Of a DNA stretch of 32,946 nt, positions 15,052-23,862 are shown piece after piece. Within the stretch, counting starts at the first letter, position 1, and each line of letters begins with the position of its first letter. The translations under genes and the position numbers were made by a program. The notes below the pieces were generated by a model, which was given only the letters and a program-made list of their open reading frames with translations, did not search any database and was not told the origin of the DNA. Location of the stretch: contig JAGARQ010000006.1 of assembly GCA_017622175.1 (NCBI GenBank), positions 1 through 32,946 of the forward strand, given 5' to 3'. This DNA comes from Bacilli bacterium. GTDB taxonomy: Bacteria > Bacillota_I > Bacilli_A > RF39 > UBA660.

Positions 15052-15063
15052 TTTCACTCTTTA
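15035..15063 (-). terminator. Intrinsic terminator after the murE-pilin unit
   Basis: Stem AAAGAGTGA / TCACTCTTT with a three-base centre, followed by a run of eight T on the minus strand. The TAA stop at 15061-15063 is part of it. Confidence 0.85.
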
Positions 15064-15525
15064 TTTTCTACAAACAACTTGAGCTTGAGGCTCATCACTA
15101 ACATAATATTCTCTTGAACTATTTAAGTTAACAAAGAAATTTTCAATTCTTACATTATGAATATCACTAACTTTATAACTAGCAATATCAACAGTACCAG
15201 AAAAAGGTTTTTCACCTTTTAATTCAATTTCTAAAGGTTCTGTTGCACAAATATCATATTTAGAATCATAATCACCTAAACAGATATCTCCATTACTAGT
15301 AATATAATAACATCCATCAGGAATATCTTCTCCTCCATTAATATATGAAAGAATAGTTCTATCAACTTCACTTCTAAAAGTAATAACATTATTCATTAAT
15401 ACTTCTTCATTTGAATGTTCTACTGCATTAATAATAGTAGGAACCATTGCTACTAAAATCATACATATAATTAATATAACTAAAAACATTTCTTTTGAGC
15501 CAACGCCACGATTATTTAACTTCAT
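15061..15525 (-). CDS. Divergent type IV pilin-like protein linked to murE
   Basis: 154 residues. The N-terminus MKLNNRG is followed by VGSKEMFLVILIICMILVAM. If cleavage follows Gly7, Glu falls at mature position 5 as in prepilins, but +1 is Val and the FTLI element is lost. One hydrophobic helix runs to about residue 33 and includes the usual Pro (MVPTI). Later, IPDGCYYITSNGDI resembles the PTGTYYI segment of the pilins at 103-1582. Four cysteines follow the helix. It starts ten bases after murE with GGGGTG as ribosome-binding site, so it is expressed with wall synthesis. It may be an atypical pseudopilin or simply a single-pass membrane protein. Confidence 0.65.
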   Translation of the reverse strand: MKLNNRGVGSKEMFLVILIICMILVAMVPTIINAVEHSNEEVLMNNVITFRSEVDRTILSYINGGEDIPDGCYYITSNGDICLGDYDSKYDICATEPLEIELKGEKPFSGTVDIASYKVSDIHNVRIENFFVNLNSSREYYVSDEPQAQVVCRK

Positions 15526-18213: not shown

Positions 18214-18244
18214 AAAAACAACTCAAAATACTTGGGTTGTTTTT
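18214..18244. terminator. Bidirectional terminator between arginase and a surface protein gene
   Basis: A 13-bp stem AAAAACAACTCAA / TTGGGTTGTTTTT (one G-U pair), five-base loop, and T-runs in either direction. Confidence 0.85.
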
Positions 18245-18944
18245 AAACTGGTATAGGAGTTGGATGCACTACACCACTTGAATTATCAACCGTACTATAA
18301 GTAAGTCCGATATCACCAAATTCTGCTTTAAAATCTCCATCTGCTAGATTACTATTATCAGTATATGAAATAGTAACTACAATCTTTTCATATAATCCTT
18401 TTCCTAAACTATGACCTGTAATACCACTTGTAGAACTCATAACTGATGTTGTTGTTCCAACATCAATACTAACATTAATATCATTACATGCAGCTTCTAA
18501 AAGTGAACTTGTAACCGAACTACTATCAATTGCTGTACAAACTTTACTAGAACTTCCTCCATCTACATTATTAAATTTTATTCCAGTTAAATAGGCATTA
18601 TATGCACCTGCGTTATAAGCATAAAATTCATACTTAACACTTTGACCAGGTCCAGTAAATGTTGCCGTTAAATCTTTTATAGTTGGAACATCTCCAGTAT
18701 TATCAATACTAGCACTTCCAGCTTTAGCATCACCTGTAACAGTTCCATTAACTTTATTAGTTAGAAAAGAGGAACCACTAGACGAAAATAAAACTTTAAA
18801 TGCACTAGAATCAGGTTTTACAATAGCATTCGAACTAATTGTAAGTTCAGATGAAAAAGCAGAAAAACCTATGCTCATCATACAAACACAAACTAATAAT
18901 AATACAAAATAAATTTTTCTTCTTTTTCTATATCTTGCTATCAT
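18243..18944 (-). CDS. Secreted TasA/camelysin-like surface protein, short copy of a recent duplication
   Basis: 233 residues. A basic start (MIARYRKRRK) and a hydrophobic stretch lead to GFSAFSSELTISSNAIVKPDSSAF, the signal pattern of SipW-type exported, TasA/camelysin-like proteins. The mature part is Ser/Thr/Gly-rich and beta-like, with FTGPGQSVKYEFYAYNAGAYNAYL, two conserved cysteines (VCTAID and AACND) and LADGDFKxEFGDIGLTYSTVD. Residues 1-218 are almost the same as those of the product of 22089-23012, with about eight changes. There the copy goes on for another 87 residues, while this one ends in NSSGVVHPTPIPV. No LPXTG or anchor is seen, so it is probably released or assembled into a matrix. 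Confidence 0.75.
   Translation of the reverse strand: MIARYRKRRKIYFVLLLVCVCMMSIGFSAFSSELTISSNAIVKPDSSAFKVLFSSSGSSFLTNKVNGTVTGDAKAGSASIDNTGDVPTIKDLTATFTGPGQSVKYEFYAYNAGAYNAYLTGIKFNNVDGGSSSKVCTAIDSSSVTSSLLEAACNDINVSIDVGTTTSVMSSTSGITGHSLGKGLYEKIVVTISYTDNSNLADGDFKAEFGDIGLTYSTVDNSSGVVHPTPIPV
18292..18944 (-). repeat. 653-bp direct repeat, copy A
   Basis: Matches 22360-23012 without any gap (constant offset of 4068), with scattered, mostly silent differences. It covers the shared part of two surface protein genes from the start codon on. Confidence 0.92.
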
Positions 18945-18973
18945 ATTTAACTCCTCTCTTTATTATTATATTT

Positions 18974-19858
18974 TTAACATAAAAGGCGTCCAGGACCATA
19001 AGTATATCCTGCAGCTATTTCCCTTTCAGGACGACTACCATCAATTATTACAGAATCATATAAAACTATTGAGTTACATTGGCTATAAGCTCCTATAGTA
19101 TTATATTCACTCTCAACCCATTCTTCCCATGTCATTCCAAGTTCTGCTGACAATTCATAAGAAACATTTTGATCACTATATGAGAAATTAATAACCCTAC
19201 TTTCATTATCAACAGTACTATAAACAAATTCAATATCTCCAAATTCAACTGTGAAAGGTCCATCAGCTAAAACTCCTTCATCAGAATGCTTAACTTCAAG
19301 ATAAACACTTTGATAAGCATCAACTTCTAATTTTTTATTCTTATAAAGTGTAGATGTATTTGCAAAAGCATCTTCAACATAAATTTCAATATAGATATTA
19401 TCACATGCTACACTTACTAAACTCGCAGAAGTATCTCCAACAGGTGTACATATTTTATTGGAGTCTTTTCCTTCTACATTCGAAAACTTAATTTCTTTTA
19501 AATAAGCATCAAATTTTCCAAAATTTGCAACCCAAAATTCATATGCAACATACTGACCATCACCAGTAAAATTAACACTTAAATCTTTTATATAAGTTTC
19601 ATTAACATAAACACTAGAACCACTTGCTCCTTCTGATGCATATGGTTCTACAAGACCAGATCCACCAGCACTAGCCATTATAGAAGAATCAATAAACCTA
19701 ACAGCAAAGTCACTACTATTTGGACTTACCGTTGCACTTGATGAAATATTTAATGTAGTTGAAAATGCCGCAAAACCAATTCCAAGTCCAAATGCTGCAA
19801 TCGCAAATAAAGTTATTAAAAACGCCTGTCTTCTTCTATAAATATTTGAGCTATACAT
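18974..19858 (-). CDS. Secreted TasA/camelysin-like surface protein with C-terminal W-W-YNT module
   Basis: 294 residues. A hydrophobic signal (about 11-27) leads to GFAAFSTTLNISSSATVSPN, the family signature. The central domain carries FTGDGQYVAYEFWVANFGKFDAYL, cysteines in KICTPV and VACDN, and LADGPFTVEFGDIEFVYSTVDN. After about residue 218 comes a separate module, INFSYSDQ to MTWEEWVESEYNTIGAY, also present in the long paralog (TSWADWLESGYNTDGFY). AGGAGG precedes the ATG. It follows the anchored paralog by 15 bases and precedes copy A by 29 bases, the same spacing as between 23042 and 23012. Function in adhesion or matrix is inference. Confidence 0.72.
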   Translation of the reverse strand: MYSSNIYRRRQAFLITLFAIAAFGLGIGFAAFSTTLNISSSATVSPNSSDFAVRFIDSSIMASAGGSGLVEPYASEGASGSSVYVNETYIKDLSVNFTGDGQYVAYEFWVANFGKFDAYLKEIKFSNVEGKDSNKICTPVGDTSASLVSVACDNIYIEIYVEDAFANTSTLYKNKKLEVDAYQSVYLEVKHSDEGVLADGPFTVEFGDIEFVYSTVDNESRVINFSYSDQNVSYELSAELGMTWEEWVESEYNTIGAYSQCNSIVLYDSVIIDGSRPEREIAAGYTYGPGRLLC

Positions 19859-19873
19859 AAAACCTCCTACACA

Positions 19874-20632
19874 TTATTTTTTATTCTTTTTACTACCAAC
19901 TTTATTAGTTAAGCCATTCTTCCCTTCCATCTCAGTTTTAGATAAGTATGTCAAAGTTAACGAACCAAACTCCACAACAAAATCTCCATCAACCAAAGTA
20001 CCATTTTTATCATACTTAATTGTAACAACAACTTTTTCACTACTGCCAGAACTTAAAATATGATCTTTAATCCCAGTAATAGATCCATCAGTAATTACAT
20101 TACTTCCCGCTTTAACAACCATACTAATTGATTCACAAGCACTACTTACTAAATATCTATTTGTATTTCTAGGATCAACCGCTCTACATTGTTTAAAGAA
20201 GTTACCACCATTAACATTAGCATAAGTAATAGTATCTAAATAAGCATCATATTTACTTGTATTATGTGAATAAAAAGTATAAGTTACTTCTTGCCCAGGT
20301 TTAGTAAATCTAACTTGTATATTAGCAATAGTATTTTTTTCATTTTTAACTACTTCCGCAGTACCAGTACTTTCACCACTATTTGAAACACCAGTAACTT
20401 CTGTCTTAGAAGTTTCTTCTGTAACATCTTTATCATCATCTATCTTATCAATATCTTTAATAGGAGAAAAAACAATATTAACATCACTATCATTAGGTTT
20501 AACTATTGGTTTATCCTTAATATTTGCTTCTCTAGACTTTGAAAACGCCCAAATACAAAACAATAAAACTAAAATTGCAATTATTAAAGCAATTATTTCA
20601 AACTTTTTAGACTTTCTTTCTTTTTCTTTCAT
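19874..20632 (-). CDS. Membrane-anchored member of the TasA-like surface protein family
   Basis: 252 residues from the ATG at 20630-20632. A Lys/Glu-rich N-terminus and one membrane helix (about 12-31) end in WAFSKSREAN, in place of the AAFS(S/T)xLxIS pattern of the others; still, VKPNDSDVNIVFS follows as in the family. An acidic linker (about 55-95) leads to the common domain: FTKPGQEVTYTFYSHNTSKYDAYL, cysteines in KQCRAVD and SACES, and LVDGDFVVEFGSLTLTYL. The tail is Lys-rich (KVGSKKNKK). The missing cleavage-type motif suggests it stays anchored and could be the base for the secreted paralogs; that is inference. Confidence 0.7.
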   Translation of the reverse strand: MKEKERKSKKFEIIALIIAILVLLFCIWAFSKSREANIKDKPIVKPNDSDVNIVFSPIKDIDKIDDDKDVTEETSKTEVTGVSNSGESTGTAEVVKNEKNTIANIQVRFTKPGQEVTYTFYSHNTSKYDAYLDTITYANVNGGNFFKQCRAVDPRNTNRYLVSSACESISMVVKAGSNVITDGSITGIKDHILSSGSSEKVVVTIKYDKNGTLVDGDFVVEFGSLTLTYLSKTEMEGKNGLTNKVGSKKNKK

Positions 20633-20667
20633 AAACAACCACCATTTTACTATTATAATCTAATTTA

Positions 20668-20676
20668 ATTATAACA
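20668..20676 (-). promoter_or_regulatory. Extended -10 candidate for the unit 20632-18243
   Basis: TGTTATAAT on the minus strand; a second TATAAT lies nearer the gene (20652-20657). The -35 box is weak. Confidence 0.4.
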
Positions 20677-20714
20677 TTATTTTATAAAATATTTAAACAA
20701 ATATAATTACTTTA

Positions 20715-20740
20715 CAAAAAAGGATAGTAAACTATCCTTC
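20715..20740 (-). terminator. Intrinsic terminator after the transglutaminase gene
   Basis: Stem AAGGATAG / CTATCCTT, loop of four, then six T on the minus strand. The TAG stop at 20732-20734 is in the stem. Confidence 0.85.
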
Positions 20741-21982
20741 TATATATATTCCATTATCTTTTTGTATTTCTGGATACCAATTAGGAAAATCGACACTATA
20801 AGTAGACATATACTCCTGTCTTAATCCATCATAATACCAGCTTGCACTCTCATCCTTAGCACTTGTCGCAACAGTAGAATCATAAAAATAGTACTTACCA
20901 TCCACCTCTACTACATTCCACATATGTGGACCAGTAGTATTACCAGTTATAGTATATGAATTAATCCCAATATTTTGAAATATTACCTGACTTGCTTTTG
21001 CAAATCCTGCACAAACTGCATTATTTTTCATAAATACATTATAAATAGATTGGTTCTTAGACATATAAGTAAACATCTTATCATAAGTATTATTTTCTCC
21101 AATCCATTCATATACATATCTAATCTTTTCTTTATCAGACATATCTTTAGTATCATCTTTTATATTATCAATTATTCTTTGAATCTTCATTTCTCCAATA
21201 GTTGCTGCTATAGGATTACTTACTGCAAATTGTAATTTTAATTTAAATCCTTTATCACTTCTATATGACCAACTATATCCAGCATAATTAATAAGTTCAG
21301 GATGATCAACTAAAATAGCATCATGTGCCCTTCCAATCAAATTACCACAATCATTGTAATCAACACATTGAAACTCATTAAAATCAATTTCTAAATTACT
21401 TTTATATTTTCTAGTATTATCAAGCATAAATCTATACATTTGTTTTTCTCTATCATTTAAAAATTCATTATAAATTCTTCCATCTGACATGTATATTTCA
21501 TTAACATAATGTAAATCATCTTTATTAATTAACTTATTACCATCAACTAAAATAGTAAAGTTAGAATAAACATATACAGAAAATATAGTAATTAATATTA
21601 GTAAAAATTTATTATTCTTAAAAAAAGTATGTTTACCTTCAGAAACATCATAACAATAAACACCACTTAAATATCCTAAATATGGATACATAATAAATGG
21701 TAAAACCACAGTAAATAAACTAGAAATTTTTCCTTTACCAAAAGCATCATTTACTAAGAAAGGTAAAAGTACACATAAAAGTGTCGCAATAAACATTCTA
21801 TCTGGTAAAAATATTAAACCAAGTGCCAGTAACATTAATAAAACTGGAGGAAATTCAATTATAGTTAAAAATAAATAAATATTATAAAAAGGAATTAACC
21901 CCTTAAAAAAACTATAACCAGCCTTCTTAATAAAACCAGGTATTGATATTAATAATGATATTAAACAAATTGCTACTAACAT
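20732..21982 (-). CDS. Multi-pass membrane protein with extracytoplasmic transglutaminase-like domain
   Basis: 416 residues from the ATG at 21980-21982 (AGGTGA five bases upstream). Residues 1-142 hold about five membrane segments, with KKAGYSFFKGLIPFYNIYLF near the start as in DUF5684-type membrane domains. The rest is presumably outside. The transglutaminase core has C324 in NAVCAGFAKA, H353 in GPHMWNVVEV and D368 in YYFYDST, the full Cys-His-Asp triad. Relatives act as transglutaminases or cysteine peptidases. It has its own terminator and lies between two groups of TasA-like surface genes, so these proteins are candidate substrates for cross-linking or cleavage; this is inference from position only. 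Confidence 0.82.
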   Translation of the reverse strand: MLVAICLISLLISIPGFIKKAGYSFFKGLIPFYNIYLFLTIIEFPPVLLMLLALGLIFLPDRMFIATLLCVLLPFLVNDAFGKGKISSLFTVVLPFIMYPYLGYLSGVYCYDVSEGKHTFFKNNKFLLILITIFSVYVYSNFTILVDGNKLINKDDLHYVNEIYMSDGRIYNEFLNDREKQMYRFMLDNTRKYKSNLEIDFNEFQCVDYNDCGNLIGRAHDAILVDHPELINYAGYSWSYRSDKGFKLKLQFAVSNPIAATIGEMKIQRIIDNIKDDTKDMSDKEKIRYVYEWIGENNTYDKMFTYMSKNQSIYNVFMKNNAVCAGFAKASQVIFQNIGINSYTITGNTTGPHMWNVVEVDGKYYFYDSTVATSAKDESASWYYDGLRQEYMSTYSVDFPNWYPEIQKDNGIYIEG

Positions 21983-22003
21983 ACACTTCACCTATCTTAT
22001 TAA

Positions 22004-22009
22004 AGTATA
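22004..22009 (-). promoter_or_regulatory. -10 candidate of the transglutaminase gene
   Basis: TATACT preceded by TG; predicted leader about 15 bases with AGGTGA at 21988-21993. No clear -35. Confidence 0.35.
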
Positions 22010-22023
22010 CAATAAATTAATAA

Positions 22024-22062
22024 ATAAAAAAAGATTGTATCTAATTTTTTAGATTACAATCT
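22024..22062 (-). terminator. Intrinsic terminator after copy B
   Basis: AGATTGT / ACAATCT and ATCTAA / TTAGAT pair in one long hairpin with a single bulged base, followed by seven T. Confidence 0.88.
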
Positions 22063-22088
22063 AATAATTAGTAACTATTAATAAAAAA

Positions 22089-23012
22089 TTATTCAGTAAA
22101 GAACTCGGAGCCATCATCAATTGTATCGCCAGCATATTGACCAGATACTTTTTTATCATCTCCTGTATATATATAACCGCCCGTTGCAAAACCCGAAGTC
22201 ATACCTGTACCTGTTTGCGGTAAATATTCATAAAATCCATCAGTATTATACCCAGACTCCAACCAGTCTGCCCACGAAGTATAATTCTCCTCTTTTGGTT
22301 CAGCATAATACTTTTTACCATCTACAGTAAATGAGATTAAATTTGCAGCAGCATCGACGGTACTATAAGTAAGTCCAATATCTCCAAATTCTACTTTAAA
22401 GTCACCATCCGCTAGATTACTATTATCAGTATATGAAATAGTAACTACAATCTTTTCATATAATCCTTTTCCTAAACTATGCCCCAAAATTACATTAGTC
22501 GAACTCATAACTGATGTGGTGGTTCCAACATCAACACTTACATTAATATCATTACAGGCAGCAGTTAATAAAGAACTTGTCACCGAACTACTATCAATTG
22601 CAGTACAAACTTTACTAGAACTTTCTCCATCTACATTATTAAATTTTATTCCAGTTAAATAGGCATTATATGCACCTGCATTATATGCATAAAATTCATA
22701 CTTAACGCTTTGACCCGGTCCAGTAAATGTTGCAGTTAAATCTTTTATAGTTGGAACATCTCCAGTATTATCAATACTAGCGCTTCCTGCTTTAGCATCC
22801 CCTGTAACGGTACCATTAACTTTATTAGTTAGAAAAGAGGAACCACTAGATGAAAATAAAACTTTAAATGCACTAGAATCAGGTTTTACAATAGCATTCG
22901 AACTAATTGTAAGTTCTGATGAAAAAGCCGAAAAACCTATACTCATCATACAAATACAAACTAATAATAAAACAAAATAAATTTTTCTTCTTTTTCTATA
23001 TCTTGCTATCAT
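22089..23012 (-). CDS. Secreted TasA/camelysin-like surface protein, long copy of a recent duplication
   Basis: 307 residues. Residues 1-218 almost equal the product of 18243-18944: same basic start, GFSAFSSELTISS signal, conserved cysteine pair and LADGDFKVEFGDIGLTYSTVD. Beyond it lies a module of about 85 residues, ISFTVDGKKYY, TSWADWLESGYNTDGFY, a Gly-rich region with GYIYTGDDKKVSG and an acidic end DDGSEFFTE. The same type of module ends the product of 18974-19858, so this copy appears to have the full ancestral form and 18243 the shortened one. It follows its upstream gene by 29 bases and has a strong terminator. Confidence 0.75.
   Translation of the reverse strand: MIARYRKRRKIYFVLLLVCICMMSIGFSAFSSELTISSNAIVKPDSSAFKVLFSSSGSSFLTNKVNGTVTGDAKAGSASIDNTGDVPTIKDLTATFTGPGQSVKYEFYAYNAGAYNAYLTGIKFNNVDGESSSKVCTAIDSSSVTSSLLTAACNDINVSVDVGTTTSVMSSTNVILGHSLGKGLYEKIVVTISYTDNSNLADGDFKVEFGDIGLTYSTVDAAANLISFTVDGKKYYAEPKEENYTSWADWLESGYNTDGFYEYLPQTGTGMTSGFATGGYIYTGDDKKVSGQYAGDTIDDGSEFFTE
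22360..23012 (-). repeat. 653-bp direct repeat, copy B
   Basis: Partner of 18292-18944. The match begins at the start codon and ends abruptly in the codon region for STVD. Confidence 0.92.
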
Positions 23013-23041
23013 ATAAACTCCTTTCTTATTTATAATAATAT

Positions 23042-23758
23042 TTAATCAATTGCACTTGAAAATAAAAAATTAACTCGAGGATATTCAATAGTAAAAGGTC
23101 CATCTGCTAAAGCAGCAGTATAATTATCAGTTTCAATATAAAGATAATTCATAACAATCTTAAAAAAGACAGACTCACCTTTTTTTAAAATATAACCATC
23201 GCCTAATACTTCATCAACAACTACAGTTCCTTCAGAATCATAAAACCCCATAGATCTCTTTATATAACTACAAGCATCATCAACTAGTTCTTGAGTTGTC
23301 CCTTGTAAAGCAGTACAAACTTTTTCACCAACAGATCCAGGATAACTCACTTTAGCATCATATAACCCCTCATTCTTTATAACAAAGTAGTATGTTGACT
23401 CACAAGTGCTTGGTCCAACAACATTTACAGAAAAATCAATTGAATGAGTTGAATTATCAATAGAAGCATTATCGCCATCTATTACAACAGGACAACTAGT
23501 ATGATAATGAATCTTTGATTCAGTCAAAGATCCATAATACTGTTCGTCATAAAATACCCCAGTAAAATTATCAGAAAAGTTGATATTACTATTAATACCA
23601 TAAATTCTAATTTTAAAATCATCACTATTAGGACTAACACTTGCACTAGACGAAATGTTTAAAGTACTAGAAAATGCAGCAAAACCTAAAGACATTCCTG
23701 TAATAGCTATTACTAATGCAATTATTGATAAAATTTTAATTTGTCTTTGTTTTTCCAT
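23042..23758 (-). CDS. Secreted TasA/camelysin-like surface protein, first gene of the upstream pair
   Basis: 238 residues from the ATG at 23756-23758 (TAGGAAGTG upstream; an ATG six codons earlier lacks a site). The hydrophobic signal at about 8-24 leads to GFAAFSSTLNISSSASVSPN. The domain keeps YYFVIKNEGLYDAKV, KVCTALQ, a DDAC segment and LADGPFTIEY, but the FTGxGQ segment is changed to VVGPSTCES and extra cysteines occur, so it is the most diverged secreted member. It ends without the W-W-YNT module. It heads a two-gene unit with copy B, and a good promoter is present at 23781-23809. Confidence 0.72.
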   Translation of the reverse strand: MEKQRQIKILSIIALVIAITGMSLGFAAFSSTLNISSSASVSPNSDDFKIRIYGINSNINFSDNFTGVFYDEQYYGSLTESKIHYHTSCPVVIDGDNASIDNSTHSIDFSVNVVGPSTCESTYYFVIKNEGLYDAKVSYPGSVGEKVCTALQGTTQELVDDACSYIKRSMGFYDSEGTVVVDEVLGDGYILKKGESVFFKIVMNYLYIETDNYTAALADGPFTIEYPRVNFLFSSAID

Positions 23759-23780
23759 AACTACACTTCCTATCATATTA

Positions 23781-23809
23781 AGTATAACATAATACTTATT
23801 TACTATAAA
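23781..23809 (-). promoter_or_regulatory. Promoter of the surface protein pair 23758-22089
   Basis: TTTATA (23804-23809), 17-base spacer, extended TGTTATACT with the -10 at 23781-23786. Confidence 0.65.
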
Positions 23810-23832: not shown

Positions 23833-23862
23833 AATAAAAAAAGCAAGATTTCTCTTGCTTAT
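23833..23862 (-). terminator. Intrinsic terminator after ftsZ
   Basis: A perfect 8-bp stem AAGCAAGA / TCTTGCTT with loop of four and a T-run on the minus strand. Confidence 0.92.

Follow-up and report, generated by a model that had tools for sequence, protein, structure and literature searches.

The stretch of DNA analyzed here (the window) comprises 32,946 nucleotides of contig JAGARQ010000006.1 from a Bacilli bacterium (GCA_017622175.1; GTDB lineage Bacteria; Bacillota_I; Bacilli_A; RF39; UBA660). One locus in it encodes five related proteins, hereafter paralogs A to E, around a multi-pass transglutaminase-like protein (TG). All six open reading frames (ORFs) lie on the minus strand in a run, E-D-TG-C-B-A, that is flanked by ftsZ/ftsA and an arginase-family gene. 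We compared this locus with its own genome (G000, a 1.43-Mb assembly of 66 contigs), with two genomes of the same genus (G001 and G002) and with more distant relatives. A to E are best explained as part of a large protein family of uncultured gut Bacilli/Mycoplasmatota, with a beta-sandwich fold and SipW-dependent secretion. The genes of the locus are:

18243..18944, minus strand: paralog A, 233 amino acids (aa), predicted secreted SipW-type beta-sandwich protein, orthologous to single copies in G001 and G002
18974..19858, minus strand: paralog B, 294 aa, predicted to be secreted, with a C-terminal GMTWEEWVxSxYN-type module; not at the locus in G001 or G002
19874..20638, minus strand: paralog C, predicted membrane-anchored copy with Trp at the cleavage position (P1) and a Lys-rich tail; ATG start probably at 20632
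20732..21991, minus strand: TG, multi-pass membrane protein with an N-terminal DUF5684-like region and a transglutaminase-like core (triad C327/H356/D371)
22089..23012, minus strand: paralog D, near-copy of A (93% at the amino acid level over 227 aa) plus a C-terminal module; lineage-specific duplicate of A
23042..23776, minus strand: paralog E, member of a divergent family subgroup; likely start at 23758

An original prediction, made from the letters of the window, had described five related proteins around a transglutaminase, and phmmer comparisons among the ORFs agreed with it: A matched D (8.7e-136), B (4e-40), C (9e-35) and, most weakly, E (9.8e-14). The three features on which that relationship had been founded also held across the wider family. 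The GFxAFSxxLxIS signal motif and the final DGxF..F strand were common to it, with C lacking a cleavable motif, and the Cys pair (C136/C153 in A numbering) was invariant in 67 sequences. At the DNA level, A and D were 92% similar over 694 base pairs (bp), beginning approximately 33 bp before the start codon. Since the tree placed them as sisters inside a clade of single-copy orthologs (supports 100/99 and 100/100), this duplication arose in the lineage of the window; compared with the locus in G001 and G002, B, D and E are additions. Searches of A to E against Pfam, NCBIfam, PHROG and PDB sequences matched none of them significantly to any meaningful family, and a phage origin of the paralogs was rejected because PHROG gave no significant match.

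The five proteins had also been viewed as a self-contained system, which had to be abandoned because family copies were found on about 20 contigs. Six-frame searches of the window's own genome, from which all copy counts were taken, yielded 26 matches at E<0.001 when D was the query and 29 with the family profile, so that A to E represent five of approximately 29 genomic copies. Four contigs (C63, C55, C49 and C44) terminate within family genes, and C63 overlaps C55, as C49 does C44, in identical or nearly identical sequence; these ends suggest assembly repeats left unresolved, and the true copy number may differ. The two same-genus genomes contained 14 and 16 matches, other genera of the same taxonomic family had 0 to 42, mostly weak, and 23 genomes from other families of the class had none. 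Tandem arrays were observed in relatives, for instance in a metagenome-assembled genome (MAG) of rabbit-gut Bacilli (L099), where ten family genes are arrayed on the same strand. Several copies carry additional C-terminal modules: the GMTWEEWVxSxYN type is found in B, D and others, and a domain of 170-190 aa ending in GVRPVIEI or similar occurs in six G000 copies of 400-430 aa (L025, L027-L030 and L032). The latter is possibly a binding domain; a single copy with it (L025) was checked against Pfam and had no match. With no Pfam or NCBIfam model matching and nothing on it in the literature searched, the family appears to be undescribed, and it comes from uncultured gut bacteria related to mycoplasmas.

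The signal region supports SipW-type export of the family. TasA of Bacillus subtilis is cleaved at TWA-AFND (PMC10269814), and the site of the family, GFA-AFS, has the same layout (aromatic P2, Ala P1, Ala P1', Phe P2'). The corresponding positions F27, A/S28, A29 and F30 were conserved at 81-99%, in agreement with a TasA-type signal site (small P1, aromatic P2 and P2'). A search for a matching peptidase elsewhere in the genome had been suggested, and four G000 proteins scored over the cut-off of TIGR02228, the archaeal/SipW-type signal peptidase model. On contig C61, the gene of one of them stands between a paralog 70 bp upstream and, on its other side, a gene for a DUF5305 protein (PF17231, 2.7e-13). 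Among 47 named related loci, which were from uncultured Bacilli, Erysipelotrichaceae-labelled MAGs and Candidatus Faecisoma merdavium (Mycoplasmatota), a family gene directly preceded a SipW-type peptidase in 24, and 25 peptidase-DUF5305 pairs were found. The window itself has no linkage to a SipW-type peptidase; in this genome it is seen on C61 instead. It looks as if family gene, SipW and DUF5305 formed the ancestral operon, of which the window locus would be an offshoot. The literature searched contained no mention of DUF5305 together with SipW.

A second cluster in G000 (L087; C13:1-16000) has three matches to SipW-type peptidases, two of them above the cut-off and one weaker. Several proteins of this cluster bear SipW-like signals, for example YSRYVADTTGDVEVQFAKW and ITYSLFTSNSN; the three of these proteins that were checked had no Pfam match.

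The AlphaFold model of A was a confident beta-sandwich (predicted local distance difference test score 91.3). Directly after the cleavage site, the family has a segment of alternating conserved hydrophobic residues (L34 97%, I36 94%, A40 93% and V42 99%), yet residues 1-16 of mature D were modelled as a coil with no partner in the monomer. In TasA polymers, the sheet of each subunit is completed by the N-terminal strand of the preceding one (PMC9674648). This conserved segment, unpaired in the predicted monomer, is our chief argument that the family may form fibres, which we infer by analogy with TasA.

Whether these proteins are relatives of TasA is another matter. The original prediction called them TasA-like, and the export class had been guessed rightly from the motif alone; homology or a common fold with TasA could not be confirmed, every search for TasA/camelysin homology by Pfam (M73), NCBIfam, hhalign, PDB profile and Foldseek being negative or below threshold. 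A PF12389 search of the window's own genome gave no match, and 67 members searched against Pfam and NCBIfam had no TasA family among the matches listed. Alignment by hhalign with TasA and with eight PF12389 hits was not significant (41% over 19 columns), and a PDB profile search yielded no significant TasA match. Foldseek comparison of the A and D models with solved structures found nothing at E<=0.001, and TasA was absent from the best 50. The grounds for the fibre analogy are thus the type of export, the operon and an N-terminal strand without a partner. That the family is a divergent branch of TasA/camelysin proper is, in our judgment, somewhat improbable, even though it shares the export motif and the peptidase type. 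Two proteins from other genera, L164 and L166, appeared to bridge the two groups: they matched the family profile (3e-16 and 1e-28) and, more weakly, PF12389 (2.9e-4 and 8.3e-4), and L164 also matched the NF046066 TasA model (6e-4). However, these PF12389 and NF046066 scores are under the curated cut-offs, and neither hhalign nor Foldseek was supportive, so that the bridge is a hint of the link, not proof. The proteins are properly called SipW-dependent; they resemble TasA in export and may do so in assembly, with family membership not established.

Beyond the original prediction, we found not only the expansion of the family to about 29 copies but also poly-G tracts in promoter spacers. Two paralogs in the window's own genome, on C5 and C33, stand directly behind TTGACA-N-G9-TACAAT. 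A pattern search detected 15 such sites in the genus (four in G000, six in G001 and five in G002), each with a run of 8-11 G between TTGACA and TA(C/A)AAT and a spacer of 14-20 bp, whereas none was found in six other genera or with a reversed-pattern control. The G000 sites are given below; further sites are listed as L135-L144.

C5:17764-17793, poly-G promoter site
C33:43577-43604, poly-G promoter site
C50:15274-15304, poly-G promoter site
C52:8070-8095, poly-G promoter site

More than half of the sites (8 of 15) lie directly before family genes; on an estimate of one gene per kb, the chance probability of this is about 4e-12. Further sites precede proteins with the same signal type (L137 and L141), and the remaining ones stand ahead of other ORFs whose N-termini contain a signal-like segment. 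Promoters that were otherwise identical differed by one G between species (G9 in L070, G8 in L143). Phase variation by poly-G tracts in promoter spacers is known for surface proteins of Neisseria. The sites found here, known from assembled sequence alone, share the position of the tract between -35 and -10 with that switch; they differ in preceding SipW-type proteins. They have the anatomy of a slipped-strand transcription switch, and the promoters may well switch, a point directly testable in existing metagenome reads.

Paralog C differs from other members at the cleavage site itself. Its three orthologs carry Trp, Trp and Phe at P1, a position that is Ala in 81 and Ser in 12 of the members found through the motif; the loss of the site is therefore conserved, and the sequences support the view, already put forward from the window, that C stays uncleaved and membrane-anchored. 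Its orthologs were found only in the window's genus (tree clade 100/100) and only adjoining TG. The enzyme scored over Pfam cut-offs for Transglut_core (3e-9), DUF553 (5e-6) and DUF5684 (1.6e-7), and its Cys-His-Asp triad, reported as intact from the window, was invariant in eight homologs. Within the genus, TG orthologs were 74-78% identical, and the order ftsA-ftsZ-TG-C-A was kept in all three genomes and found nowhere else. The association of enzyme and family thus stood within the genus, but no homolog outside it had a family neighbor. The C/TG pair is consistent with an arrangement of base and enzyme. Since the synteny spans only three close genomes, it is no proof of a reaction: the link between TG as enzyme and the family proteins as substrates is unproven, and cross-linking is a guess.

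The transglutaminase-like superfamily also holds peptidases, and bacterial relatives may be peptidases. TG could accordingly have nothing to do with the paralogs, being a cysteine peptidase linked to the cell envelope or division that came to lie near ftsZ by chance, its neighborhood kept by the closeness of the genomes. We regard this as evenly balanced. It would fit the homologs of other genera, which lack family neighbors, the conservation of the entire gene order around ftsZ in the genus, and a G003 homolog that is also within 3 kb of ftsZ with no paralog there. It does not readily account for C, the sole anchored type, being found only beside TG, or for a second transglutaminase-like pair (636 and 304 aa) on C52, directly preceded by a paralog with the GVRPVIEI-type domain (L028), although that pair is kept in G002 (L076) without the paralog. 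The expanded, apparently phase-variable SipW-dependent family is the stronger and more testable finding than the enzyme link.

The interpretation that we slightly favor is a SipW-dependent fibre system with switchable subunits. The N-terminal signal would be cut at GFA-AFS by a SipW-type (endoplasmic reticulum/archaeal-type) signal peptidase encoded elsewhere in the genome, and the freed segment (A-F-S-x-x-L-x-I-x-S-x-A-x-V-x-P), partnerless in the monomer, would insert into the next subunit, so that surface fibres might polymerise by donor-strand exchange as in TasA. Because C presumably cannot be cut and is held in the membrane, it would most likely serve as the fibre base or anchor. TG might act outside the membrane on the C/A pair or the adjacent wall, by cross-linking or trimming. 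The copies would have expanded to about 29 and acquired C-terminal modules, and with some placed behind poly-G promoters, the subset of subunits displayed could change from cell to cell. If fibres were confirmed, TasA-type assembly would be extended to a lineage without a matrix protein in the literature searched, and a candidate enzyme for covalent fixation would be added. The fullest version, in which a non-cleaved base subunit is combined with a dedicated TG that fixes subunits covalently and with some thirty phase-variable subunit genes that alter fibre composition from cell to cell, is in our opinion very unlikely.

Several results weigh against the fibre system as outlined: the window's own locus has no poly-G promoter tract, TG homologs from outside the genus lack a neighboring family gene, TasA/camelysin homology was not detected at threshold, and a search for a conserved Lys/Gln pair as transglutaminase substrate found at best columns with 63% Lys and 75% Gln outside the N-terminal segment. 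Alternatively, SipW might export the proteins as surface adhesins or decoys that always remain monomers, and the many copies and poly-G promoters would then serve to vary antigens or adhesins. Such a role would agree with the high copy number, the tandem arrays, the divergence of the C-terminal modules and the presence of poly-G promoters before unrelated secreted proteins, and also with the finding that no fibre protein of solved structure was matched significantly. Nevertheless, we consider this unlikely: an alternating N-terminal segment conserved at 93-99% in four columns and unpaired in the monomer is hard to explain without a partner, and the SipW operon linkage resembles the tasA and bsaA operons.

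Compared with the TasA-SipW-TapA system, the putative fibre system has a similar export by a SipW-type peptidase, with aromatic P2 and P2' around Ala-Ala, and a beta-rich subunit whose N-terminal strand is free after cleavage (here a prediction). Its differences are a copy number in the tens, poly-G promoters, a transglutaminase-like neighbor and, within the operon, a DUF5305 protein; in addition, neither sequence nor fold reached the threshold for homology. In B. subtilis an accessory protein is thought to anchor and nucleate the fibre (PMC9674648, PMC10269814), whereas here the role of anchor would fall to a paralog that has lost its cleavage site. In Clostridium perfringens, BsaA (TIGR04090) likewise depends on SipW for its secretion and is encoded in a sipW operon; TIGR04090 was matched by one member of the family described here, at an E value of only 0.021. 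BsaA polymers form without an accessory enzyme (PMC7395162), and BsaA expression is bimodal through a two-component system rather than poly-G tracts. TG itself resembles the transglutaminase-like superfamily (PF01841) with a DUF5684-like N-terminus, in Pfam score as well as in the invariant triad.

Weak candidates for transcription signals were also noted in the window, where a promoter scan gave no more sites than in shuffled sequence:

23841..23860, minus strand: terminator-like hairpin between ftsZ and the E-D-TG-C-B-A run (weak; three hairpins found versus 1.8 in shuffles)
23781..23809, minus strand: promoter-like site upstream of E, without a poly-G tract (weak; site count not above shuffles)
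20668..20697, minus strand: promoter-like site (extended -10) between TG and C, a possible separate start for C-B-A (weak)

Finally, a small protein beside murE (15061-15525, minus strand), which had no Pfam match, has a type IV pilin-like N-terminus (GVGSKEMFLVILIICMILVAMVPTI) and is kept in both G001 and G002.

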